Source: a virus. Taken from it: a stretch of 30,018 nt of DNA. The notes beneath the pieces were generated by a model, which ran no database searches, was not told where the DNA came from, and saw nothing but the letters and a program-made list of their open reading frames with translations. The stretch spans positions 1-30,018 of the IMG/VR virus record IMGVR_UViG_3300027906_000091. One strand, written 5' to 3'. The translations under genes and the position numbers were made by a program. Positions 4,177 to 25,108 of the stretch are shown here, piece after piece (positions within the stretch are counted from its first letter, which is position 1; each line of letters opens with the position of its first letter).

Positions 4177-4380
4177 ATGAACAAAGATAATAAGAAAAAG
4201 TTTTTACCTGAGAAATATAAAGATGTGTCTGCATATAGCTTTACGACATATAACAATGAGCTTGTTATTAGCTTTGATGGATTTGAAAACCAAAAGGATA
4301 TTTTAGAATTTGCCGACTTTGTATTTGCTAAGATTAAAATGAGGTATTGGCATTCCGAAGGTGTACCTACATTTCATTAA
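4177..4380 (+). CDS. small hypothetical protein
   Basis: 67 residues, basic N-terminus (MNKDNKKKFLPEKYKDVSAY), then a compact alpha/beta-like stretch ending KMRYWHSEGVPTFH. No family recognised. Its TAA overlaps the methyltransferase ATG by one base (TAATG at 4378-4382), so the two are translated together. It might be a partner or regulator of the methyltransferase, an inference from coupling only. Confidence 0.6.
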   Translation: MNKDNKKKFLPEKYKDVSAYSFTTYNNELVISFDGFENQKDILEFADFVFAKIKMRYWHSEGVPTFH

Positions 4381-5111
4381 TGAAATTATATAAAGGCGAT
4401 TGCCTAGATGTTTTGCCAACATTGGCAGACGAAAGCATTGATTTAATTATAACAAGTCCACCTTATGAAGATATTGCTGGAGCTGGTTATACATCCAATA
4501 ATAAGGATGTACTGTTTTTAAAACTATATTCAGAATTTCTGGATAAAATATTTAAAGAATACAAAAGAATTTTAAAACCTAATGGACAGCTTTTTTTTAA
4601 TATTAAAAGCAAGACATTAAAAAAGACTTTAAAAACTCCACACTGGATTGAGTTCACAGATGGATTTCAAAGTTTAATATATAAGAGCTTTATTATTTGG
4701 AAATACTCAGGATCTTTTGATAGCACAAAATCTAGGTTTCATTTAGATTATGAGATTGTTTATCATTTATCTAAAGGTAACGATATATATCTAAATCCAG
4801 ATTGTGATATTCATGATCCTTTAAGCAGTGTTTGGTATATTCCTCATAGTATTAAAAAAGAGGATAGAGTTCATCCTACTCAAATGCCAATAGCTTTAGT
4901 TGACAGAATTTTAGATGTAGCCTCAAAGCCTGGAGATGTTGTTTTAGACAATTTTTTAGGAAGTGGAACAACTGGCTTAGCTTGTAAAAAAAGAGATTTA
5001 GATTTTATCGGTGTAGAGCTTAATGAAGATTATTTTGAATTAGCAAAAAATAGAATAAATGAAAATAACAATACCTTATACTCCGAGAAAGCAACAAGCC
5101 TATATCCATGA
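4380..5111 (+). CDS. DNA methyltransferase, beta-class (N4-cytosine or N6-adenine)
   Basis: 243 residues from ATG 4380; a TTG 11 codons upstream is in frame but lies inside the preceding gene. Catalytic motif IV is T-S-P-P-Y at 25-29. The SAM-binding motif I region D-N-F-L-G-S-G-T-T-G is at 190-199, after HPTQMP at 165-170. Motif IV before motif I is the beta-class order. SPPY is the form common in N4-cytosine enzymes but is also found in N6-adenine enzymes, so the base cannot be fixed. No restriction endonuclease is next to it, so it is an orphan phage methylase. It probably protects phage DNA from host restriction or marks it for packaging or regulation. It overlaps the large terminase gene by 53 bases. 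Confidence 0.9.
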   Translation: MKLYKGDCLDVLPTLADESIDLIITSPPYEDIAGAGYTSNNKDVLFLKLYSEFLDKIFKEYKRILKPNGQLFFNIKSKTLKKTLKTPHWIEFTDGFQSLIYKSFIIWKYSGSFDSTKSRFHLDYEIVYHLSKGNDIYLNPDCDIHDPLSSVWYIPHSIKKEDRVHPTQMPIALVDRILDVASKPGDVVLDNFLGSGTTGLACKKRDLDFIGVELNEDYFELAKNRINENNNTLYSEKATSLYP

Positions 5112-12624: not shown

Positions 12625-12842
12625 TGACAACTTCAGCATTTGATCCAAGATTAATAGAAAAATATTCTAAACCAAAATCGCTACTTCATTTTCAATGGGG
12701 AGATGACACAAAAGTTTATAGATATTGCTTAGTAGAAATCATAGACGAAAAAGATATTGATCCAACGACTAAATGTAAAAAAGAAGAACAAGGTTTAACG
12801 CAACAAGAAATTTTTAAAAAGATATGCCAAGAACAACACTAG
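12624..12842 (+). CDS. small hypothetical protein between tail tube genes
   Basis: 72 residues, no recognised family. The core is LLHFQWGDDTKVYRYCLVEI followed by an acidic/basic linker and a Gln-rich helical end. It starts in the TAATG overlap with the adaptor gene and its 3' end overlaps the nozzle gene by 19 bases. A virion or assembly role is inferred only from position. Confidence 0.55.
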   Translation: MTTSAFDPRLIEKYSKPKSLLHFQWGDDTKVYRYCLVEIIDEKDIDPTTKCKKEEQGLTQQEIFKKICQEQH

Positions 12843-14818
12843 CTTTAACTTCATTTGTATCAGGAGAATTTTCTGCAAAAATGGATGGCAGAACTGATTT
12901 TGAAAAATATAGTTCTGGAGTTAAAACTATGGAAAACTTTTTAGTGCATCCTCAAGGAGCTGCTACTAGAAGAATTGGAACTCAATTTATTTCTGAAGTT
13001 AAAACTTCTTCTGCTAAAACAAGATTAATACCATTTGAATTTTCAACTACTCAAACTTATGTTTTAGAATTTGGAAATACTTATATTAGATTTTATAAAG
13101 ATAAAGGACAGATTGTAACTGGAGGATCAACTCCTTATGAAATTTCTTCTCCTTATTTAACTGCTGAACTATTTGACATCAAGTTTGCTCAATCAGCTGA
13201 TGTTATGTATATCACACATCCTAATCATGAAGTGATGAAGTTAAGTAGAACTGGACATACAGCCTGGACACTTACTGAAATTGATTTTACTGATGGACCT
13301 TATTTAGCTCAAAACACATCAGCAACAACAATGTCTCCATCTGGAACTTCTGGATCAGTTACGATAACTGCAAGTACATCAACTTTTGCTGCAACTGATG
13401 TTGGAAGATTAATTACATTTAGCTCAGGAAGAGCAAAAATAACTGGTTATACTTCTGCAACTCAAGTTGCTGCTACAACTCAAGTTAATTTTTCTGGAAC
13501 TGGAGCTGTAACAACTTGGAAGTTAGGAGCTTTCAGTAATACTACTGGACATCCTTCTTGTGTATCATTCTTTGAACAAAGATTAGTTTTTGCTGGAACT
13601 TTATCTGAGCCACAAACTTTATATTTCTCTAAAGCTGGAGATTATGAAAACATGACGACTGGAACTAATGCTGATGATGCTATGGTTTATACTATTGCCT
13701 CAAATCAGGTTAATGCCATTCGATACATGAAAGCAGTAAGAACTTTAGTTATTGGAACTACTGGAGGAGAATTTACAGTATCAGCTGATGGAACTAACGC
13801 ATCGGTTACACCAACAAATGTAACGATTAAAAAACAAAGTTCTTTTGGAGCTGCAAATGTGGATGCTATTCCAGCTGGTAATGCAATTTTATTTTTACAA
13901 AAAGCAAAAAGAAAAATTAGAGAATTAGCTTATAACTTTGATAGTGATGGTTATGTTGCTCCAGATTTAACAATATTAAATGATACAGTTACAAAAACTG
14001 GAATTAATGAAATGTCATATCAACAAGAGCCAGATAGTATTATTTGGTGTGTTAGAGATGATGGTCAATTAGCTGGTTTAACTTATCAAAGATCTGAGAA
14101 TGTAACTGCTTGGCATAGACACATTTTCGGAGGAGTTTTTGGATCTGGTAATGCAGTTTGTGAAAGTGTTGCAAGTATTTCTGGAACTTTAACTGAAGAT
14201 GAAGTTTGGGTAATTGTTAAAAGAACAATTAATGGTGCTACAAAAAGATATGTAGAAGTTTTTTCTGATTTTGATTTTGACGAAACAACTTCAACAGATT
14301 TTAAATTTTTAGACAGCCACCTATCCTACTCTGGAGGATCTACTTCAACATTATCTGGATTGGCACATTTAGAAGGTCAAACAGTTTCTATCCTGGCTGA
14401 TGGAGCTACTCATGCTACAAAAGTTGTAAGCTCAGGTGCAATAAGTTTAGATAGAGCATGTACTAAAGCATGTGTCGGTTTATCTTATGATAGTGTTTTG
14501 CAAACTATGAGAATTGAAGGAGGAGCTGCTGAAGGAACTTCTCAAGGAAAAACAAAAAGAATTTCAAAAGTTGTTTTAAGATTATTTGAAACAGTTGGTG
14601 TTAAAGTTGGACCATCTCTAACAACCTTAGAGACAATTCCATTTAGAACAACATCATCATTATTAAGTTCTCCAGTAGATACTTTATTAGCTGGAGATAA
14701 GGAAATAGAATTTAGAGACGATTATAACTCAGATGGATTTATATTTGTTAAACAAGATCAGCCTTTACCATGTTCTGTTTTAGCAATCTATCCAACTTTA
14801 GTTACATCGGATGGCTAA
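12824..14818 (+). CDS. tail tubular protein B-like (tail nozzle)
   Basis: 664 residues. The N-terminus SFVSGEFSAKMDGRTDFEKY, then SGVKTMENFLVHPQGAATRR and IGTQFI, is the signature of the T7 gp12/P22 gp10-class nozzle family. Further family blocks are YVLEFGNTYIRFYKDKGQI, HPSCVSFFEQRLVFAGT, GDYENMT and RKIRELAYNFDSDGYVAPDL. It forms the hexameric nozzle at the tail tip through which proteins and DNA leave. It is somewhat shorter than T7 gp12 (about 790). It overlaps the next gene by 8 bases. Confidence 0.92.
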   Translation: MPRTTLALTSFVSGEFSAKMDGRTDFEKYSSGVKTMENFLVHPQGAATRRIGTQFISEVKTSSAKTRLIPFEFSTTQTYVLEFGNTYIRFYKDKGQIVTGGSTPYEISSPYLTAELFDIKFAQSADVMYITHPNHEVMKLSRTGHTAWTLTEIDFTDGPYLAQNTSATTMSPSGTSGSVTITASTSTFAATDVGRLITFSSGRAKITGYTSATQVAATTQVNFSGTGAVTTWKLGAFSNTTGHPSCVSFFEQRLVFAGTLSEPQTLYFSKAGDYENMTTGTNADDAMVYTIASNQVNAIRYMKAVRTLVIGTTGGEFTVSADGTNASVTPTNVTIKKQSSFGAANVDAIPAGNAILFLQKAKRKIRELAYNFDSDGYVAPDLTILNDTVTKTGINEMSYQQEPDSIIWCVRDDGQLAGLTYQRSENVTAWHRHIFGGVFGSGNAVCESVASISGTLTEDEVWVIVKRTINGATKRYVEVFSDFDFDETTSTDFKFLDSHLSYSGGSTSTLSGLAHLEGQTVSILADGATHATKVVSSGAISLDRACTKACVGLSYDSVLQTMRIEGGAAEGTSQGKTKRISKVVLRLFETVGVKVGPSLTTLETIPFRTTSSLLSSPVDTLLAGDKEIEFRDDYNSDGFIFVKQDQPLPCSVLAIYPTLVTSDG

Positions 14819-15272: not shown

Positions 15273-15720
15273 CATAGCAGCTGCAAAAACAGCAAGTGCT
15301 TTAGGAAAATATAATCAGCAAAATTATTATCAACAAGCTGCATTACAAAGAAGAAAAACAGAGATTGCAAAAAATGCTTACGATCAGATTGATCGAAAAA
15401 GATTAGTTATCAATCAAGAAAAACAATACGATAGTTTATTTGTTAATCTACTTAACTCAGGTGCAGAATTAAGATTAGGAGATACTGGTTATGAAGTGTT
15501 GCTTGAAACTAAATATAATCAAATGACTGATCTTGCTATTGAAGATTTTAATTCTCAACAAGCATATTACGATGGAATTAATCAATCTTTATTATTAGAG
15601 AGCAAAGGTGTTGGCGAAAACTTTAAAGGTCAATTAACTGCTAGAGCTGAATATATGAAAGCAGTTGGATCTATGGCTGGAAATTATTATAGCTCAGGAA
15701 GTATTTTATCATCAGGTTAA
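15256..15720 (+). CDS. internal virion protein, gp14-like
   Basis: 154 residues with an Ala/Gln-rich helical N-terminus (IAAAKTASALGKYNQQNYYQ) and long helices (RRKTEIAKNAYDQIDRKRLV), followed by a Gly/Ser-rich end. Length, composition and position between gp13-like and gp15-like genes match T7 gp14, an ejection protein that inserts into the host outer membrane. Sequence identity to T7 itself is not evident, so the assignment leans on gene order. It overlaps the previous gene by 17 bases. Confidence 0.7.
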   Translation: MSFIGNIAAAKTASALGKYNQQNYYQQAALQRRKTEIAKNAYDQIDRKRLVINQEKQYDSLFVNLLNSGAELRLGDTGYEVLLETKYNQMTDLAIEDFNSQQAYYDGINQSLLLESKGVGENFKGQLTARAEYMKAVGSMAGNYYSSGSILSSG

Positions 15721-15721
15721 T

Positions 15722-17365
15722 ATGGCAAATATAAAAATACCACAATCTACTGCTCAGGTTAAAGTTGGAGCTGCTACTCAAGTTGGAGCTCTTGCTCTTC
15801 CAATAACTCAATTATCTAATGTTGTTGGATCTGGCTATAAAGCTCTTGGAAAAGTTGTTGAAGATATACATAAAGAACAAGTAACAGCAGAAGATAATGC
15901 TCAGTTTCAAGATATTGTAAAAAAAGCTGCTGTTGATATTGAAAGAATAAGCACAGCTGCATCAAGAGGAACTGATGTAAAATTAGCAGTAGATACATTT
16001 GAAAAATTAACTAAGCCTGAGAAATGGAATGAATTAACAAATGGCAAAAGAAAGAAAGTTAAAACAAAATTTAATCAATGGTTAAATAAAACTAAATTAG
16101 CAGAATATGTTTCAATAACAAAAACTGTAACTGGCAATCATGTTAAGCATGTTAAAGTTTCAAACAATACATACTTAGATGATTTAACTTTAAAAGCATC
16201 AAGTACAAATGTTGAAAGATCTGTTAATGCTCTTAATGAATTAAATGGATGGTTTGAAGATCCAGCAAATAGTATTCCTTACGATATTGATGAGTGGGAA
16301 AAATTAAAAGAAGAAAAATTAAATCAAGCTCAAAAACTTGCATATCAATTTGGTGCTAAAAACAATCCTGATTGGACACTTGCAAACAGAAAAGAAATTG
16401 AAAAAGTTGTTGGTCCTGAAGAGACTGAAAAACTTGTTGAAACAGCTAAGTTAAAAATTGCATCAAATGTAAATGCTGAGGACCAGGCTGATGAGGCAGA
16501 TATAAAAAATAGACAAGATTATAAAATAGGTAACTTTACTGAATTTCTTATTAGAATAAAAGATCAAGAGGATGTTCCAAGTTTAGATGTCATTAATGAT
16601 TTTTGGAAAGAAGATAAATTGAATACACCTCAATATGAGGCTTTAATTAAATTTTATGCTAATCCAAAATTTACTGGTAGCGATGATATTTATGATTTAA
16701 TTAATGAGCAAGTATTCTTAGCTGATACTGCTGAAGAAAAAGATGCTTTACAAAGAAGATTAAATTTATCTCCAGATTATTTAATAGGATTAGGTATTAA
16801 AGATATATCTGCAATTTCTGGACTTATTGAAAAATCTAAAGACCGACAAGTATTTCAAGATATGAAATATTATAAAACTGTTTTAGATGATACTTTAGGA
16901 AAATTAGATGAAGGAGGATTTATTTCTTTATCTAATTCAGAAGATCCTAAGAAAGATAAAAAATTAAGAACAAAAGCTCAAAGATTATATAACGAAGGTT
17001 TAGATAATAACTTATCTCCAGAAGATGCGTTTATGAGAGTTGTTAAAGGTTTCTTATTACATGAAAACAGAATGCCAGTTATTTATGACATTGCAGCAAT
17101 AACTTCTATTGCAACACCTGAGCCTTCTGATGCTGACAAAAAAGGAAAACCAGAAGATGTGTTTGATGGCTGGAGAACAAAAGCCATGGATGAATATAAA
17201 AAAGGCAATATTGGTTTTGATGAATTGTTAAATGATTTAGATGGATTAGATACTATGCAAGATCTTTTTAACATCAGAAAAAGAGCAGAAAAACATATTA
17301 AAGGTTTTGATGCCTGGAGCTCTAACAACAGCACAACATCAGGTGCATCAGGAGATTTAGGATAA
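15722..17365 (+). CDS. internal virion protein, gp15-like
   Basis: 547 residues from ATG 15722, which directly follows the previous stop; a TTG 19 codons upstream is in frame but lies inside the preceding gene. It opens with IKIPQSTAQVKVGAATQVGA, an N-terminal pattern I associate with marine podovirus internal proteins, and is otherwise almost all helical and polar, with no enzyme motif. In T7, gp15 with gp16 forms the periplasmic channel for DNA ejection. The gene order 13-14-15 and the coupling (TAATG) to the next gene support this role. Confidence 0.7.
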   Translation: MANIKIPQSTAQVKVGAATQVGALALPITQLSNVVGSGYKALGKVVEDIHKEQVTAEDNAQFQDIVKKAAVDIERISTAASRGTDVKLAVDTFEKLTKPEKWNELTNGKRKKVKTKFNQWLNKTKLAEYVSITKTVTGNHVKHVKVSNNTYLDDLTLKASSTNVERSVNALNELNGWFEDPANSIPYDIDEWEKLKEEKLNQAQKLAYQFGAKNNPDWTLANRKEIEKVVGPEETEKLVETAKLKIASNVNAEDQADEADIKNRQDYKIGNFTEFLIRIKDQEDVPSLDVINDFWKEDKLNTPQYEALIKFYANPKFTGSDDIYDLINEQVFLADTAEEKDALQRRLNLSPDYLIGLGIKDISAISGLIEKSKDRQVFQDMKYYKTVLDDTLGKLDEGGFISLSNSEDPKKDKKLRTKAQRLYNEGLDNNLSPEDAFMRVVKGFLLHENRMPVIYDIAAITSIATPEPSDADKKGKPEDVFDGWRTKAMDEYKKGNIGFDELLNDLDGLDTMQDLFNIRKRAEKHIKGFDAWSSNNSTTSGASGDLG

Positions 17366-20154
17366 TGGCTAAAGAAAAATTTACAGAACAGCAATACGAA
17401 GAGTTTGATTATATTACTGACTTCTATATGCCGATTAAAGAAGTTGAAGATAAATATAACTCTCCACATTTAAAAAGATTAAGAGATGCTAAAATTGATA
17501 CTCATGAATATTTAGGTTTAGAAAAAGTTGAAGGTGTTGGAGAAATAAAAAAGATTGAAGATAAAACAGAATTAGCTGAGGCAAAGAAAACTATTGGTCA
17601 ACATTTAATAGATTTTGCAAAAGATCTTCCAGAAGGAACAGTAACAGAATTAGGAGAGGCTGGAGCTAATGTTTTAAATAATGTTGTTCAGCTATTTGGT
17701 TTTGGATCTAATATGATTTTTAAAGGATCTGATAAAGGACAATTTATTTCTGATGCAACAACAGAATTTGCTCAAGGTTATAATAAAGGAACAGAAGAAT
17801 TTATTGCCAAACTAAATAAGTATAAAGAAGAAAACGATGTTAATGGAGCATCAGAATTTGTTGGAGAAATAGGAATTGATATTGGAGCATACTTTCCAAT
17901 TAATAAAATGTTAAAGAAAGCTGGTATTCCAGATAAAGTCTCTACTCCACTTGCTTTTGGTTTAGCCTGGGGATTTACTGGAGGAGATGCTGAGGCTGAA
18001 AAAGGAATGTTCATCGACAGTGAAGTGATCCATGGAGTAAATGACATTTTAGGAGTTTTAGAAGATACACCAGAAAGTGAAGTTGCAGAATTAGTTGGTA
18101 ATACTTTTGAAGGAACTATTTGGGGAGTTGCTGGAGATCAATTAATTAGAGTATTTAAAATTATAAAAAATAATGTTCCAGCTTTTATTAATCCTCAAAC
18201 AGCGACAACAATGGGAGGAACTGCTATTGCAACAGAAGGAGCAATAAGAGTTCAAGAAAACGCAGAAGAAAATTTGAATGTTGAAAATCAGAATTTAGAC
18301 GAGGAAAAAAAAACTCTAAATTTTGACGATCAAAGCAATAATAAAACAATGATGGAAATGTTTTATGGCTTAGATAAAACACAACAAGAAAAAATTTCAG
18401 CAGCTACTGGTTATCCAGTGGACCAAATTAAACAAGCTGGATTTCTTGATACAGTTGTTAAAGAAGGTGCAAAAAAGTTAGGTCCAGTTTTTAAATCTAT
18501 TGTAAGAGAGACAGCAGAAAAATTGCCAAACAAAGGAACTGGAGAACAAATGTTTAACCAGTTAAAAAATACTCCTGGAGTTAAATCTTCAGAATTAAAA
18601 TGGACTGGTCTTGATGAATTTCTTAAAGGCAAAAAAAGTGTAACTAAACAAGAAGTACAAGATTTTCTTAAAAATAATTCAGTAGATGTATCTGAAGTAA
18701 AATTTGGTGGACCACAAAGAGAATTATTACAAGATACAGTTAAAAGAAAAAATGCTTTTGAGGAAAAATGGTTAAATAATCAAGAATTAAAAAGAGGTAC
18801 AAAATATAGAAGTGAAACTGATAGAAATTTTGAACTTAGACAAGAAAGTCTTGATTATGATAATTATGAAGTTTTAGACAATGCTGATGGAACTTATTTA
18901 AGAATACCTTTTGATATGATGGCAACTTATTTTGGCGATGATTTTGCTAAAGGAGTTATAAAACCTAATAAAGTATTTAAAGGACCTGAAGGTCAAAATT
19001 TTCAAATATCTGCTTTAGAATTAGAAAAATGGAATATTGAAAATGAGATAAGAAATTTTAATAAAAGTGGAGGTACACCTAAATTTAATAGACCAGATTT
19101 AGTTGAGCCAGGTGGAGAAGATTATACCGAGTTAGTATTTAAAGTTAAAAAAGGTGGAATGGATATTGGTATTCCAACAGAAGTTAGAGGTAATAAATTA
19201 TTAGAAACTAAAAAAGGTGTTTTCTCTACTACTGATACTAGAGAGATGAATAAGTCAAATTGGATGACTACAACACCTTATAAAAATCCAGCTCACATGG
19301 ACACTAAATCAGAGATAGCTCATGTAAGATTTAAAACCAGAAATCTAAATGATATGAAAGTTTTAACAGTTGAAGAAATGCAATCAGATTTTGCAACAGC
19401 TGTAAGAAAAGGTCAAATGGATATGCCAGGATTAGATGATCTTGAAAAGCAAGTAGTTCAAGATTTTCCATTTAAAAATACTTGGTATGAAATGACAGTT
19501 AAAAGATTAATTAGATATGCTGCTGATAATGGATTTGATGCAGTTGCTATACCTAAAGGATCTGTCATTCAAGATAGGTATCAACTAACAAAAAAAATAG
19601 ATGACTTTGATATTGGCTCATTTGATCTAGCAAGAAAAGAAGTTGGATTAGAGGCAACAGATCGAAAAGGAATGTTACAAATATCTGAAGTATTTTCTTT
19701 TGATAAAGTTGAAAAAGAATTTGGTAAAGAAGTATTAGATAGAATTATTGCTAAAGGTAAAAAGATTAACTGGGCAGAAGTTGCAGAGCCTGGAGGAATA
19801 GATACTAGAGTTCTATTACCAAAAACTATTGAGTATGGTGGAGAAGGTAAAACACAATTATACAATGTAGCAATTCCTAAGTTTATGAAAAAGTATGGCA
19901 AGAAATGGAATGCTAAAGTTTATGATGATAATATTAAACAAGGACCAACTGTTGCTATGGATAGTATAAGTACCAAAAAAAGAAAGTTTGGTTTTGATAT
20001 ACCAGTTACAATAATTAAACTTACACCAGAAATGAAAAAAGCTGTTCAAACAGATGGACAAGCTCTATTCAGTATCTTTGGATTAGGTGGTGTTGGAGCA
20101 TCTGTAATATCGGATAGTATAAAAAACAATAATATTTCACAAACGACAAATTAA
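17365..20154 (+). CDS. large internal virion protein with polyvalent-protein-type domain
   Basis: 929 residues in the gp16 position. Residues 1-300 are helical with hydrophobic patches at about 95-118 and 192-206. From about 392 there is a region I recognise from giant phage 'polyvalent' proteins. It begins GEQMFNQLKNTPGVKSSELK, then WTGLDEFL. It continues with AHVRFKTRN at 652-660, VLTVEEMQSDF at 666-676, FPFKNTWYEMTVKRLIRYAA at 701-720 and GFDAVAIPKG at 723-732. It ends with IIKLTPEM (883-890) and GQALFS (898-903). The EMQSD/TW/AIPKG blocks are the conserved core. I see no lytic transglycosylase motif like that in T7 gp16. It is probably ejected into the host with the DNA; whether it has enzymatic activity there is unknown. 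A terminator-like hairpin follows. Confidence 0.75.
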   Translation: MAKEKFTEQQYEEFDYITDFYMPIKEVEDKYNSPHLKRLRDAKIDTHEYLGLEKVEGVGEIKKIEDKTELAEAKKTIGQHLIDFAKDLPEGTVTELGEAGANVLNNVVQLFGFGSNMIFKGSDKGQFISDATTEFAQGYNKGTEEFIAKLNKYKEENDVNGASEFVGEIGIDIGAYFPINKMLKKAGIPDKVSTPLAFGLAWGFTGGDAEAEKGMFIDSEVIHGVNDILGVLEDTPESEVAELVGNTFEGTIWGVAGDQLIRVFKIIKNNVPAFINPQTATTMGGTAIATEGAIRVQENAEENLNVENQNLDEEKKTLNFDDQSNNKTMMEMFYGLDKTQQEKISAATGYPVDQIKQAGFLDTVVKEGAKKLGPVFKSIVRETAEKLPNKGTGEQMFNQLKNTPGVKSSELKWTGLDEFLKGKKSVTKQEVQDFLKNNSVDVSEVKFGGPQRELLQDTVKRKNAFEEKWLNNQELKRGTKYRSETDRNFELRQESLDYDNYEVLDNADGTYLRIPFDMMATYFGDDFAKGVIKPNKVFKGPEGQNFQISALELEKWNIENEIRNFNKSGGTPKFNRPDLVEPGGEDYTELVFKVKKGGMDIGIPTEVRGNKLLETKKGVFSTTDTREMNKSNWMTTTPYKNPAHMDTKSEIAHVRFKTRNLNDMKVLTVEEMQSDFATAVRKGQMDMPGLDDLEKQVVQDFPFKNTWYEMTVKRLIRYAADNGFDAVAIPKGSVIQDRYQLTKKIDDFDIGSFDLARKEVGLEATDRKGMLQISEVFSFDKVEKEFGKEVLDRIIAKGKKINWAEVAEPGGIDTRVLLPKTIEYGGEGKTQLYNVAIPKFMKKYGKKWNAKVYDDNIKQGPTVAMDSISTKKRKFGFDIPVTIIKLTPEMKKAVQTDGQALFSIFGLGGVGASVISDSIKNNNISQTTN

Positions 20155-20161
20155 TAGTAAT

Positions 20162-20191
20162 AAACAAGTATCTTAAAATATTTGTTTTTTT
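20162..20191 (+). terminator. intrinsic terminator-like hairpin with T-run
   Basis: AAACAAGTAT (20162-20171) pairs with ATATTTGTTT (20178-20187) over 10 bp with one G-T pair and a 6-base loop, and seven consecutive T end at 20191. It is AT-rich, so moderate strength is likely. It lies in the 60-base gap between the two large internal virion genes. Confidence 0.5.
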
Positions 20192-20214
20192 AAAACAATA
20201 GGATTTCATTATAT

Positions 20215-23088
20215 ATGTCAACATTAGCAAAGGAAGGAACTAAGCAACTTTTAAGAACAGTAGATGATTTAATCTTAAAGAATAAAGGTCTTAAAAATCC
20301 TGAAAAATTATTAAAGAAAAAAAAAGATTTACAAGTTGGCGATGAGACTATTGCTGTTGGACCAGGAACAACACAAACAAAAGTTGGTATAAAACAAAAA
20401 GTAAAAGTTCCAGAAGTTCCAAAAGAAACAATAGAAGAATTTTTAACTAGCTTTAACAATAATACTATTCCAAAAAAAATACTTGCTGATTTTAATATAG
20501 ATAAAATCACAAATAACGATGACATCTTTAAGATGATCAATGGAATAGCAAAAGGATTTAAAACTTCTGAAGTTGTTAAACAAACTAGAGGTGCTAGAAA
20601 GCATGGCACAACTAAAGCTGCTGGAACAAAGTTATCTAAAGACAATGATTTTCTTTTAGAAGTTTTAGGAACAAAGCCTGGTAAAATGTATAATGCCGAT
20701 CAGATTTATGGCATAAGACAATTACTTGAGGCTGGTGCTGCTAGAACAAGATACTTGGCTGAAAAACTAAATACAGTTGGAGCAGATAGTTCTGAAGTTG
20801 CTTTAAAATTTAGACAGCATTACGCACTAATGGCTCAAATTCAGAAAGTCTTATTAGGTGTAAAAACAGAAACTGGAAGAGCTTTAAACCAATTTAAAAT
20901 TCCATCTAATGCTAGTAAAAAATATTCTTTTTTAGGTGGCAATATAGATGAGGTAAATAAAAGAGAATTATTACTTGAGATTGGTGGATTTGATGAAGTT
21001 AAAAAAGTTGCTGAATTAGTTATTAGAACTCAAGACAATACACAATTATTAAAAGCAGTTGAAAAAACTGGTTTAAGAGAATTTTCAATTAAAACTTCAG
21101 ATGCTATTGCAGAAAGTTTTATAAATGTAATTTTATCTAATCCATTAACTCATGTAAGAAATGGTTTAGGAAACTGGATCTCTCAAGCAATGGTCCAGGC
21201 TGAAAAAAAATACGCAGCTACTTTTTTTAAAAAATTAGGAGCAGAAGGAACTGGAACTAATTACATGGCAGCTCATTCTGATATTGCGAGAGCCTGGGGA
21301 AAACACATGGCAGCTAAAGAAATTATGTCTGCGATGGCTGATGTATATAAAATAAGTGGATCTAAAATTGAAAGCAAATTAGGTAAAGTTACAGCTCAAA
21401 ATTTTAATATAAAAAACAAAACTCTTGGTGGAGCTTTTGATTTATTCGGCAAAGGAATAACTTTAAATAATTATCCGACTAAATGGTTAAAGACAGCTGA
21501 TGATTATTTTAAGAATAGAGAATTTAGAGCAGAGCTTTATGAGTTAGCTTTTAATGATGGAATGGAAATGTTTAATAAAGGATTAATTCAAAGTGAAGAT
21601 GATCTTGCTTTATACATTGCATCAAAAGTTGCTCATCCAACAAAAGAATTTACTGATCTTGCAGTTAAACAAGCTAGGTATGTAACTTTTCAAACTCCTT
21701 TAAAAGATCGACAAGATATTTTTAGAGTTGGAAATGTTGCTCAACAATTTAAAAATACAACAGCTAATGCTGGACCTTTTTCTTGGCTGACTAATTATTA
21801 TTTGCCATTTGTTCAAACTCCAACAAACATCGCTGGATTTGTTGCAGAGAGAACTCCAATATTAGCAAAAAGATTAACAGCTTATAATACTGAGATTGCT
21901 GCTGGTGGAAAAAGAGCTGCTATTGCAAAAGCAAAATTACAGCTTGGCTCAATGTTTTATATGGCAACAGCTCCTCTTGGATATTATGGAGTTGGAAGAG
22001 ATAAAGTGGAAGGAGCTTTAGGTGTTGAACTTCCAAGAACAAGAGGATCAGATATTAGAGGTGGAAGATCAAAATTAACTGGTGGAAAAAATTTATTACA
22101 AAAGACAATTAAAGCTCAACCAATGCAAATTGAGTTACCTCTTGGAAATGGTAAATTTCAAAAAATAAGTTTTAGAAGTTTTGATCCAGTTGCTCAAATG
22201 TTTGCTAACTCTGCAAATGCTGGACAGTTTTTATCTTTAATGGAAGGATCTATCCAAAATAATTTAGATCCAGAAGATCCACAATATGCACAATTAGCAA
22301 ATGATATGTTGCATTATACAGTTGCCTTAACTTTTTCAATTGGAGAAAATATATCTAATTCTACAATGTTAGCTGGTGCTGGAAAGATGGTTAATGATAG
22401 TAGAAAAATTATTAATGGAACAATTGCTGGTAATCCTGGAAAAGCATTTAAAGAAGTTGGATCAGAAATGGCAAGTTCTTATGTTCCAACAGTAGCAAAA
22501 GAAGTTGGTAAATTATTTAACGATGATAGCCAAAAGTTAATAACAGAATTTAACGAATATTTTAAAAAGAATATTGCAGAAAGTGATCTTTGGTACGATT
22601 ACGATATGCGAGGCAGAAAATACGATAAGTTTAATTACTTTAATCAATTTGAAAGAGATGCAATTGATGATGAATTAGAGAAAGTTTTTCCTCAAATTAT
22701 GCCAGTGAAGAATTATATTAGAGTTGGTTATGGTAATAAGAAATTAGGATTAGAGGTTTCTGTTCCATTAAATTCTTTAGAAAAAAGTTTTGTTAGAAAA
22801 AATGCTGGATTAATTTTTGACAACAATATGAAGAAGTTAATGAATGATCCAAGTTATACTAATGATGAAAGACAATTTATAAAAGAAAATTTAATTAAAG
22901 TAAATTGGAATAGTGCCAAATCTGCTGCTTTTGAAGAACTTAAAAAAAACACAAACAGAACTATCACAAATAAAGATGGAGAAGAAATAACAGTTAATTT
23001 TGGAATGGACCTTACAAGTAGAGCAACAGAATTAGCATTAAAAGAAATACAAAATTCTCAAAGAGGATTTGTAAATGAGGAGCAATAA
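20215..23088 (+). CDS. large internal virion protein, LPD38-like polyvalent-associated
   Basis: 957 residues. Three blocks typical of large polyvalent proteins are visible: FRQHYALMAQIQKVLLGVKT, then ETGRALNQF at about 199-227; VILSNPLTHVRNGLGN at 305-320; and YLPFVQTPTNIAGFVAERTP at 529-548. These resemble the LPD38-type region found at the end of giant phage and plasmid proteins. The middle is helical with Ala-rich stretches, and the C-terminal third (residues 750-957) is charged and helical. The start has AGGATTTC 12-19 nt upstream. Expected to be packed in the virion and ejected, inferred from its place after the 929-residue protein. No catalytic motif was identified. Confidence 0.7.
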   Translation: MSTLAKEGTKQLLRTVDDLILKNKGLKNPEKLLKKKKDLQVGDETIAVGPGTTQTKVGIKQKVKVPEVPKETIEEFLTSFNNNTIPKKILADFNIDKITNNDDIFKMINGIAKGFKTSEVVKQTRGARKHGTTKAAGTKLSKDNDFLLEVLGTKPGKMYNADQIYGIRQLLEAGAARTRYLAEKLNTVGADSSEVALKFRQHYALMAQIQKVLLGVKTETGRALNQFKIPSNASKKYSFLGGNIDEVNKRELLLEIGGFDEVKKVAELVIRTQDNTQLLKAVEKTGLREFSIKTSDAIAESFINVILSNPLTHVRNGLGNWISQAMVQAEKKYAATFFKKLGAEGTGTNYMAAHSDIARAWGKHMAAKEIMSAMADVYKISGSKIESKLGKVTAQNFNIKNKTLGGAFDLFGKGITLNNYPTKWLKTADDYFKNREFRAELYELAFNDGMEMFNKGLIQSEDDLALYIASKVAHPTKEFTDLAVKQARYVTFQTPLKDRQDIFRVGNVAQQFKNTTANAGPFSWLTNYYLPFVQTPTNIAGFVAERTPILAKRLTAYNTEIAAGGKRAAIAKAKLQLGSMFYMATAPLGYYGVGRDKVEGALGVELPRTRGSDIRGGRSKLTGGKNLLQKTIKAQPMQIELPLGNGKFQKISFRSFDPVAQMFANSANAGQFLSLMEGSIQNNLDPEDPQYAQLANDMLHYTVALTFSIGENISNSTMLAGAGKMVNDSRKIINGTIAGNPGKAFKEVGSEMASSYVPTVAKEVGKLFNDDSQKLITEFNEYFKKNIAESDLWYDYDMRGRKYDKFNYFNQFERDAIDDELEKVFPQIMPVKNYIRVGYGNKKLGLEVSVPLNSLEKSFVRKNAGLIFDNNMKKLMNDPSYTNDERQFIKENLIKVNWNSAKSAAFEELKKNTNRTITNKDGEEITVNFGMDLTSRATELALKEIQNSQRGFVNEEQ

Positions 23089-23095
23089 ATAATAA

Positions 23096-25108
23096 ATGAC
23101 AATATCAACTACAATAATTAAAAACAGTTATTCTGGAAATGGCTCAACAACAGCCTTTACTTATAATTTTAAAATTACTGATGAAGATGACATCCAGGTA
23201 ATAATAAGATCAGCTGCTGGAACTGAAACAGTAAAAACAAAAACTTCTCATTATGTAGTCGGAGGAGTTGGCAGCAATTCTGGAACTGTAACTTTTCAAT
23301 CTGGTCATATACCAGCATCTGGAGAAACAGTTGTATTAAGAAGATCTACTCCTAAAACTCAGACTATGGATCTAATCGATAATGATCCTATGAGTGCCGA
23401 CACAATTGAAACAGCACATGATAAAGCTATGGCTGTTACGCAAGAGCTGCAAGAACAAATTGATAGATCTTTAAAATTATCAAGAACGAACACAATGACA
23501 TCAACTGAATTTACAGTTGCTGCAACTGATCGAGCAAACAAAATTTTAGCTTTTGATAGTTCTGGAGAAATTGCTGTTACTCAGGAACTTGGAACTTTTA
23601 AAGGTAACTGGGCTGCATCTACTGCTTATGTAATTAGAGATATAATTAAAGATACAAATAATAATAATATTTATATTTGTGTAACTGCTCACACTTCATC
23701 TGGAGCTGTTCCAATCAGTTCAAATACTGATGTTGCAAAATGGTCCTTATTAGTTGATGCTGCATCAGCCTCTACTTCTCAAACTGCTGCTGCCTCTTCT
23801 GCAACTGCTGCTGCAAGTTCAGCGACAGCTGCTGCATCATCGGCATCGACTGCAACGACTAAAGCATCCGAGGCTACTACTGCCAAGACTGCTGCTGAAA
23901 CAGCTAAGACTGCTGCCGAGACTGCAAAAACTGCTGCTGAGACAGCTAAGACTGCTGCTGAAACTGCACTTGATACTTTTGATGACAGATTTTTAGGAGC
24001 TAAGTCTAGCAATCCAACAGTTGATAATGATGGTAACGCACTTATAGATGGAGCATTATATTTTGATACGACTAATGATATAATGAAGGTTTATAACCTG
24101 GCTAACACTACTTGGTATCAATTAACTTTAACTACAAGTAATCAAAATAATGTTAATACTGTTGCTGGTCAGATTTCGCCAACAAATAATATTTCAACAG
24201 TTGCTGGAGCAAATTCAAATATTTCGACTGTTGCTGGACAAATATCTCCAACAAATAATATTGCGACACTAGCTGGAATTTCTGGATTATCATCTTTAGC
24301 TGCTGCTCATGCTGCTGTTTCAAATGTATCAAGCAATTTATCAGCTGTTCAAAATTTTGCTGATGTTTATAGAATTGCATCATCAGCTCCAGTATCAAGT
24401 TTAAATGTCGGAGATCTTTATTTTGATACTTCTGCTAACGAATTAAAAGTTTATAAATCATCTGGCTGGGCTGCTGCTGGTTCTACAGTTAATGGAACAT
24501 CTGCTAGATTTATTTATAATATTACTGGAACTCCAACTACTTTAACTGGTGCATCTGGAACTGGCTATGCTGAGGCATCAAGTTCAGTTCTTGCTTATGA
24601 TGCTGGATTTGTGGATGTGTTCCATAATGGAGTAAAGATGGTTTTAGGAACTGATGTTACTGCAACATCTGGAACTTCTTTAGTCTTTGCATCAGCTTTA
24701 GCAAATGGCGATGTGGTGGATGTAGTTGCTTATGGAACTTTTAATGTAGCAGCAGTAGCTGGTTCAGCAATTAATTCAGGAACAATTAGTGAGGCAAGAT
24801 TACCAGCATCTGCTTTAGGAGCAGTATGGGAAAGTAAATCAGCAGATTTTACAGCTGCGGCAAGGAAAAATTACTTTTGTGATACTTCAAGTAATGATAT
24901 TGATGTTACTTTACCATCAGGAACTATTGGAGATGAAATTCATTTCTTAGATGTTTCAGGTACATTTGACACAAACGATTTAACAATTCTAAATGGTTCA
25001 AGCAAAATTCAAGGAGCATCAGCAAACTTAGATGTTTCTACTGAAAGAGCTGGATTTACTTTAGTTTATTATAACTCAACTCAAGGATGGTTATTAAAGG
25101 ATAAATAA
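23096..25108 (+). CDS. tail fibre protein with T7-type N-terminal anchor
   Basis: 670 residues. Residues 1-130 form the T7 gp17-type anchor (YSGNGSTTAFTYNFKITDED, then the VLRRSTPKTQTMDLIDNDPM block and the helix QELQEQIDRSL), which binds the tail. Residues 225-292 are an Ala/Thr coiled coil with four TAAETAK heptads. Two G-x-LYFDT modules lie at 319-340 and 438-457 (LYFDT, then KVY and W). Residues 505-550 carry a VDVFHNGVKM strand module. An SGTISEARLP motif at 561-570 precedes a beta-rich C-terminus. It attaches to the nozzle and contributes to receptor binding, perhaps as an adaptor for the fibres encoded next. Confidence 0.92.
   Translation: MTISTTIIKNSYSGNGSTTAFTYNFKITDEDDIQVIIRSAAGTETVKTKTSHYVVGGVGSNSGTVTFQSGHIPASGETVVLRRSTPKTQTMDLIDNDPMSADTIETAHDKAMAVTQELQEQIDRSLKLSRTNTMTSTEFTVAATDRANKILAFDSSGEIAVTQELGTFKGNWAASTAYVIRDIIKDTNNNNIYICVTAHTSSGAVPISSNTDVAKWSLLVDAASASTSQTAAASSATAAASSATAAASSASTATTKASEATTAKTAAETAKTAAETAKTAAETAKTAAETALDTFDDRFLGAKSSNPTVDNDGNALIDGALYFDTTNDIMKVYNLANTTWYQLTLTTSNQNNVNTVAGQISPTNNISTVAGANSNISTVAGQISPTNNIATLAGISGLSSLAAAHAAVSNVSSNLSAVQNFADVYRIASSAPVSSLNVGDLYFDTSANELKVYKSSGWAAAGSTVNGTSARFIYNITGTPTTLTGASGTGYAEASSSVLAYDAGFVDVFHNGVKMVLGTDVTATSGTSLVFASALANGDVVDVVAYGTFNVAAVAGSAINSGTISEARLPASALGAVWESKSADFTAAARKNYFCDTSSNDIDVTLPSGTIGDEIHFLDVSGTFDTNDLTILNGSSKIQGASANLDVSTERAGFTLVYYNSTQGWLLKDK
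23882..23968 (+). repeat. 21-base tandem repeat coding for TAAETAK heptads
   Basis: About four copies of a 21-base unit (ACTGCTGCTGAAACAGCTAAG with third-base differences) encode a heptad coiled coil in the fibre shaft. The repeat number could change by slippage, altering shaft length. Confidence 0.75.

Follow-up and report, generated by a model that had tools for sequence, protein, structure and literature searches.

A gp16-type internal virion protein and an adjacent protein with an exchangeable domain in a relative of Pelagibacter phage HTVC028P

Results

Gene order and phage source

The window analysed here is a 30,018-nucleotide stretch of viral DNA (positions 1-30,018 of the IMG/VR virus record IMGVR_UViG_3300027906_000091), whose closest named relative is Pelagibacter phage HTVC028P. 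The gp34 protein of HTVC028P is 34% identical to a 929-aa protein encoded in the window (E 2e-53), and its gp33, annotated as 'putative internal virion protein', is 29% identical to the 957-aa product of the following gene (tblastn, E 1e-77). Homologues were further found on three Pelagibacteraceae contigs, which supports a SAR11 host. The genes of the window run in the order portal (Pfam Head-tail_con), capsid (Phage_capsid_2), tail tube A, tail tube B, two proteins of ~150 aa, the 566-aa open reading frame at the gp15 position, the 929-aa gene, the 957-aa gene and the tail fibre [Table 1]. This order is identical to that of HTVC028P gp47-gp32, and the core gene order of four further loci of our comparison set (L004, L005, L007 and L011) matches it as well; by this synteny, the placement of the two genes at the gp16 position of a T7-like ejection cluster, as put forward in the original prediction, was borne out, and both reading frames were recovered with exactly the predicted boundaries. 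The 929-aa and 957-aa genes are confirmed as real genes, both encoded among virion genes within the ejection cluster of an HTVC028P-like relative of Pelagibacter phages, the latter being the final large ejection gene ahead of the tail fibre.

The ATG of the 929-aa gene overlaps the stop codon of the upstream frame in a TAATG junction, and the gp15-position gene more likely starts at the ATG at 15722 than at the TTG at 15665 given in the list of open reading frames. An AT-rich hairpin followed by a U-run lies between the 929-aa and 957-aa genes (20155-20214); it was rejected as a candidate signal, shuffled sequences giving a non-significant z of -1.23. Elsewhere in the window, an N6/N4 DNA methyltransferase gene (4347-5111; Pfam N6_N4_Mtase, E 1e-38) is located between the small and large terminase genes; no methyltransferase is annotated immediately ahead of the large terminase gene in HTVC028P.

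Table 1 Position and supporting evidence of features in and around the putative ejection cluster of the window.
Feature	Position	Strand	Evidence
Tail tube B	12824..14818	+	phrog_376 tail protein, E 1e-220
gp15-position protein, from the more likely ATG start	15722..17365	+	Position equivalent to HTVC028P gp35
929-aa gene, ATG start	17365..20154	+	Homologue of HTVC028P gp34
N-module, ~residues 1-310 of the 929-aa protein, predicted carrier	17365..18294	+	Profile; stands alone in 14 relatives
Cargo (EMQSD) domain, residues 370-898 of the 929-aa protein, GNAT-like predicted fold	18472..20058	+	Profile, AlphaFold model
Invariant EEMQSD motif, residues 670-675 of the 929-aa protein	19372..19389	+	E671, Q673, S674 and D675 in 93/93 homologues
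Tail motif NNNIS, residues 921-925 of the 929-aa protein	20125..20139	+	NNxIS conservation
957-aa gene, ATG start, putative gp16-type internal virion protein	20215..23088	+	HTVC028P gp33; six Autographiviridae; L049
SNPLTHVRN motif, residues 308-316 of the 957-aa protein	21136..21162	+	T312 and N316 invariant in 43 homologues
PFVQTPTN motif, residues 531-538 of the 957-aa protein	21805..21828	+	F532, T535 and P536 invariant in 43 homologues
Tail fibre, T7-type N-terminus	23096..25108	+	phrog_1640 and others; position equivalent to HTVC028P gp32

The 957-aa protein as a gp16-type body

On the strength of profile homology, we assign the 957-aa protein as the body of a gp16-type internal virion protein. 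In six marine phages of the Autographiviridae, the profile of its family matched the proteins at the gp16 position with E values of 1e-124 to 5e-89, several of these proteins being annotated as 'internal virion protein D', and the homology begins, in the best cases, around residue 290-310 of the marine proteins and reaches nearly to their end. One relative (L049) bridges the family to P-SSP7 gp16 and Syn5. The protein contains a GRAL motif at residues 221-224 besides the two motifs listed in Table 1, and residues N304, L307, T312, N316, F532, T535 and P536 are invariant among its 43 homologues. A lytic transglycosylase was absent from the 957-aa and 929-aa proteins in Pfam searches with E up to 1; an N-terminal lytic transglycosylase is a feature of T7 gp16 itself and is not universal among gp16 proteins. 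Pfam, NCBIfam and PADLOC returned nothing significant for either protein, and sequence searches of the PDB yielded no meaningful match.

The original prediction linked the motifs of both proteins to multi-thousand-residue polyvalent proteins. For the 957-aa protein, the resemblance stood at the level of predicted fold. Its AlphaFold model (mean pLDDT 61.8) matched chunks of polyvalent proteins in BFVD by Foldseek over ~950-1,050 columns, the foremost being an ART-PolyVal-like chunk (E 1.4e-17) and a 'Large polyvalent protein associated domain' chunk (E 2.8e-17), followed by MuF (6.7e-14) and PolyVal ART (1.9e-10) chunks. The gp16 internal virion proteins of Pelagibacter and Synechococcus phages appear alongside these chunks in the same list, the quality of which drops beyond about rank 40. 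The models superpose loosely (TM about 0.4, rmsd 15-25 A), which is unsurprising for long helical proteins at this model confidence, and a structural search of the PDB gave generic helical matches only, with Z below 6. The likeness of the 957-aa protein to polyvalent C-terminal chunks is thus supported by models.

Sequence homology to the C-termini of giant proteins is, by comparison, only suggestive. When the giants were searched with the 957 family, only L093 (4172 aa) stood out: its C-terminus, a single sequence, was matched at 53-82% by hhalign, with a score of 54.2 where 40 shuffles reached no more than 25.5, and its FPIVKVPSN segment aligns opposite PFVQTPTN. Profile comparison with the C-termini of L058/L100-type giants gave 6-19%, NPVVHMNN falling weakly in register with NPLTHVRN. 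Both the L093 and the L058/L100-type scores exceeded those of all column shuffles. A viral scan with the C-terminus of L093 matched only itself. The 957 family was not linked to the LPD38 profile by profile comparison (0.3-2.6%), while LPD38 and the L058/L100 C-termini were mutually linked at 91.6%.

Architecture of the 929-aa protein

The 929-aa protein starts with an N-terminal module of ~300 aa (hereafter N-module); residues 370-898 make up a cargo domain, and a short tail at the C-terminus ends in NNNISQTTN. It was the N-terminal third and the C-terminal tail, which the original prediction does not mention, that proved to be the key to the locus. The N-module profile matched 78 reading frames in the loci. 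In 14 relatives, the module stands alone as a protein of 218-307 aa. It was found in none of the giants retrieved here, and comparisons with the gp15-position protein, with mid-type N-termini and with L008 gave no match. Another N-module protein (L141, 8254-9843) carries a 236-residue N-terminal extension and no C-terminal cargo. Of the 22 proteins that combine the N-module with the cargo domain found here, 21 carry an NNxIS motif among their final 20 residues, as do 13 of the 14 stand-alone N-modules and the L009 protein; the motif occurs there in none of 3212 other reading frames or 35 giants. Since the tail is kept with and without cargo, the cargo often sits between two fixed ends; the forms of the protein found in L121 and with DUF7178 (see below) lack NNxIS, so that the tail is not required in every form. 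In all two-gene relatives examined, the gp16-type gene directly follows the 929-type gene, which in most cases is itself preceded by a gene at the gp15 position.

Sequence, spread and predicted fold of the cargo domain

The cargo domain, which we refer to as the EMQSD domain, contains the motifs WTGL (residues 413-416), EMQSD (671-675), TW (706-707) and AIPKG (728-732). The 93 aligned homologues share R655, E671, Q673, S674 and D675 without exception, and the invariance of these polar residues suggests that they may form an active site. The motifs of the 929-aa and 957-aa proteins alike are conserved to a degree far above chance. In the first 154 loci, the cargo profile matched 122 reading frames, including proteins of 1,300-4,369 aa; the region was recognized, for instance, within a 2150-aa protein (E 6e-41) and a 4012-aa protein (E 4e-10). 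A Pfam scan of 14 EMQSD-bearing giants revealed ART-PolyVal in six, LPD38 in five, InPase in three, LPD22 in two and DUF7178 in two, in addition to LPD37 and MuF_C. As defined by Iyer et al. (PMC5512222), these giants are polyvalent proteins, and for the 929-aa protein the predicted link of its motifs to such proteins was thereby corroborated by sequence. The EMQSD domain is shared with these giants; neither the 929-aa nor the 957-aa protein contains a named polyvalent domain (LPDs, ART-PolyVal or others) by Pfam scan and LPD5 and LPD38 searches. The 929-aa protein harbors one predicted enzymatic domain, and none was recognized in the 957-aa protein by Pfam scan, so that neither chain combines several disparate activities. 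The cargo domain matched no Pfam or NCBIfam family, GNAT families among them; an assignment to Pfam LPD5 was considered and rejected upon an empty LPD5 search of the window, and a search of the window with Pfam LPD38 also returned nothing. The EMQSD domain is an unnamed but widespread domain that we did not find described in the literature searched.

Among its other carriers, a 4012-aa protein of Nostoc phage Nsp-JY18 (L014, 3165-15203) and Microcystis phage Mel-JY33 (L015) combines an EMQSD domain with a near-threshold LPD22 and occupies the gp16 slot of a podophage cluster; its annotation as 'lysin' is probably misleading. A 2387-aa protein of the 209-kb Dolichospermum phage Dfl-JY45 (L152, 10027-17190) seemingly harbors two EMQSD copies, as judged from two places matched by tblastn.

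The AlphaFold model of the cargo domain reaches a pLDDT of about 90 or more in most blocks of residues 650-860. Every one of the 50 structural matches listed was an acyltransferase of the GNAT fold, the best at Z 10.2, and 94 chains reached Z 8 or more; Foldseek against solved structures retrieved the same kind of match at non-significant E values (above 0.05). A GNAT-like fold is thus supported by modelling, on the basis of one AlphaFold model. Motif A of GNAT enzymes, (R/Q)xxGx(G/A), follows the fourth strand and binds the pyrophosphate of CoA. In our alignments, this motif has no counterpart in the cargo domain, where VEEMQSD stands in its place, the position being taken from the order of secondary structure elements; by the same reasoning, ExQSD may occupy the site of CoA-pyrophosphate binding. 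Because the usual glycine-rich loop is missing, we call the domain GNAT-like and refrain from classifying it among the GNATs.

Exchange of the cargo between relatives

Proteins starting with the N-module were found in several states: without cargo, with the EMQSD domain, with DUF7178 (L119, L120, L122, L123 and L131), with a segment common to LPD38 giants (L121; E 2e-4 to 5e-4) and with a further domain in L009. DUF7178 in L122 and L123 scored 41.7 and 35.7 bits, respectively, against a Pfam cut-off of 27. The L009 domain was negative in Pfam and matched phrog_4301 (E 4e-8); its designation as kinase-like, which came from inspection by eye only, was dropped upon the negative Pfam result. In two cases (L041/L149 and L045/L137), the N-module and the EMQSD domain are encoded by separate genes. 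The breakpoint was sharp when L030, which carries EMQSD, was compared with L122, which carries DUF7178: as far as residue 250, each block of 50 residues contains 46-49 identical positions, and beyond it a common linker around IPGTVNEYGFEKT is followed by background similarity only. Mapping the slot states onto a tree built from the adjacent gp16 proteins (52 rows) requires at least 11 changes, and the well supported branches alone force seven changes for EMQSD; the closest relatives of the window on this tree carry EMQSD, an L009-type cargo or none.

Many of the relative contigs are fragmentary, and assembly errors may account for some of the gene breaks. Genes of the gp16 or cargo type are distributed over at least two frames in L041/L149, L150, L131 and L329 (Methylophilales phage MEP301). 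A real split, frameshifting and sequence error are all candidate causes of these breaks, one of which (MEP301 gp24/gp23) occurs in an isolate genome.

Relation to giant polyvalent proteins

A search with the EMQSD block located this region in giants of 1,300-4,369 aa that carry ART-PolyVal, LPD38, InPase and LPD22, as the original prediction had anticipated. No single frame combining EMQSD with a gp16 body recognizable by sequence was found in 328 loci. By fold, chunk 1 of the BFVD entry A0A516LVQ9 matched the 929-aa protein (E 1e-11) and chunk 2 the 957-aa protein (E 2e-10) in Foldseek, and chunk 4 of A0A6J5P8Z9 matched both; from these predicted structures, fusions of an EMQSD domain with a gp16 body probably exist. 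In a tree of the EMQSD domain, all carriers of the N-module fall in one clade (31 rows, SH-aLRT 100), which adjoins giants such as L008 and mid-size proteins, several of them encoded immediately 5′ of gp16-type genes. Because the tree is unrooted, it accommodates either direction, giants built from ejection proteins or broken into them. Outside the bacterial viruses, the archaeal Methanosarcina virus MetMV (L169, 1621-10629) encodes a 3002-aa protein, the C-terminus of which is 43% identical to LPD38-bearing giants of bacterial viruses.

Discussion

In T7, the ejection proteins exit the head ahead of the DNA to form a channel, and gp16 reaches the cytoplasm (reviewed in PMC8954989); the proteins of the cluster described here would thus be expected to exit the head first and form a channel. 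From the gene order, homology, domain sharing, slot exchange and tail conservation observed here, we propose, with a probability of roughly 60%, that the locus encodes an ejection apparatus of the gp16 type whose cargo slot draws on the pool of polyvalent domains; packaging, ejection, catalysis and target of the 929-aa protein and its cargo are what we infer beyond these observations. The 957-aa protein would be the gp16 body that, together with its neighbours, exits the head ahead of the DNA and helps build a channel across the cell envelope. The 929-aa protein would be co-ejected with the proteins of the cluster and deliver the cargo. Its N-module and NNxIS tail may be the fixed delivery parts, serving docking in the internal core, passage through the channel or both, and its middle would be the slot, occupied here by a divergent, GNAT-like domain in which ExQSD is invariant and in sister phages by DUF7178, other domains or nothing. 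Early in infection of the SAR11 host, the cargo might act as an acyl- or similar group-transferase. The same cargo domains are building blocks of the giants, which other phages presumably inject, and both kinds of phage would use one pool.

We also entertain a broader picture, which is tentative and which we lean against more than towards: SAR11 podophages would possess a dedicated effector-delivery chassis (N-module plus NNxIS tail) that loads swappable effector domains into the ejection apparatus, in the manner of the cassette exchange of polymorphic toxins, and giants would be the same cargo stacked in one chain with a gp16-like body.

A first alternative, the chances of which fall a little short of even, concerns origin and is compatible with the cargo slot. 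Here, a gp16 was divided in two, the N-module being its former N-terminal part and the 957-aa protein the rest, with the cargo inserted secondarily at the break. In profile comparison, the second half of the N-module pairs with the gp16 region that immediately precedes the 957-like body, at a probability of 26.7%, with a score of 35.1 where 60 column shuffles gave no more than 19.0, and with a probability of 0.1% for the reversed profile, and the start of 957-like homology at ~residue 290-310 of several gp16s agrees with such a division. The probability is nonetheless well under 50% and covers 71 columns only, the N-module is without a counterpart over its first 180 residues, and single gp16 sequences score under 2%.

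Doubtful, although in keeping with the missing canonical CoA loop, the non-significant Foldseek matches to solved structures and the constant association with virion proteins in small phages, is the notion that the cargo is a structural or DNA- or protein-binding part of the virion core that uses a GNAT-like fold as a scaffold. Against it speak the invariance of charged and polar residues, the persistence of the gene cluster in phages with an empty slot, and the unrelated nature of its other contents, which is incompatible with a structural part. It is improbable that the 929-aa protein is not packaged and is a late protein acting in assembly or in the infected cell: its HTVC028P homologue is annotated 'hypothetical protein', yet the gene directly precedes the gp16-type gene in each two-gene relative examined, its start overlaps the upstream stop in the window, and its cargo domain is common to proteins encoded among virion genes. 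Least probable of all is the original proposal that the two genes are halves of a former single giant polyvalent protein separated by a stop and a start codon, or else the two genes that directly gave rise to it, which could appeal to the fold matches of A0A516LVQ9 and A0A6J5P8Z9 to both proteins, to the cargo shared with giants and to L008, a single 2150-aa protein with its cargo on the neighbouring branch of the tree that follows a 557-aa gp15-position protein, but against which stand the absence of the N-module from the giants found, its solo occurrence in 14 relatives, the swapping of cargo between near relatives, the two-gene or further split state of all near relatives, the lack of named polyvalent domains in either protein and the absence of a fused frame in 328 loci. 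The cargo slot describes the locus better than a split giant.

If correct, the cargo-slot interpretation would link T7-like ejection proteins and giant polyvalent proteins, two separate bodies of work. A fixed chassis with a visible slot would further make the cargo of an ejection apparatus readable from the genome, and the activity of the ExQSD GNAT-like domain could be tested in small proteins rather than in proteins of 4,000 aa. The phages concerned are relatives of phages infecting SAR11, bacteria that are among the most abundant in the sea. A fixed chassis with swappable cargo beside gp16 was not found described in the literature searched, nor was any paper pairing 'internal virion protein' with 'polyvalent protein' found in this search, which covered few subscription papers.

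Compared to known systems, the 957-aa protein shares with T7 gp16 and the 'internal virion protein D' of Autographiviridae (P-SSP7 gp16, Syn5 gp45, HTVC025P gp39 and CRP-118 gp34) its gene slot and a homology that is nearly full-length, the marine gp16s having about 290 N-terminal residues that it lacks. The locus differs from T7-type gp16 in that no transglycosylase match is present in the 929-aa or 957-aa protein and that an extra, cargo-bearing gene precedes the 957-aa gene. That polyvalent proteins are encoded near virion genes and are 'pieced together from solo versions' has been described by Iyer et al. (2017, PMC5512222). With these proteins, the 929-type proteins share the vicinity of virion genes, the EMQSD domain, DUF7178 and the L121 segment, and the 957-aa protein resembles polyvalent chunks by predicted fold. 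In contrast to them, however, the 929-type protein carries one cargo rather than many, is under 1,030 aa in size, has no detected LPD or ART, and has a fixed N-module and tail, its cargo being swapped and not accumulated. An example of a single polyvalent protein in a podophage is gp69 of the Bcep22-like JC1, in which a lytic transglycosylase-like (LT-like) domain (residues 80-192) at the N-terminus, as in T7 gp16, is combined with a methylase, a helicase, LPD3 and, near the C-terminus, LPD38 (residues 4195-4401) (PMC9144972). JC1 gp69 is one chain of over 4,400 aa with other cargo in a temperate host system, and LPD38 was not detected in the 957-aa protein.

The predicted fold of the cargo is like that of GNAT acyltransferases (ICL2 C-terminal domain, AtaT/TacT, GCN5 and RimI; Z 8-10), and two RimI-like GNAT families have been reported in polyvalent proteins (PMC5512222). 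It differs from GNATs in giving no sequence match, in the apparent replacement of the acyl-CoA loop by ExQSD and in a large insertion ahead of the last helix. Finally, mosaic exchange of domains among ejection proteins is known from the transglycosylase, which moves between gp16 and gp15 (PMC8954989); there, a peptidoglycan hydrolase relocates, whereas here unrelated domains are swapped at one slot between fixed ends.
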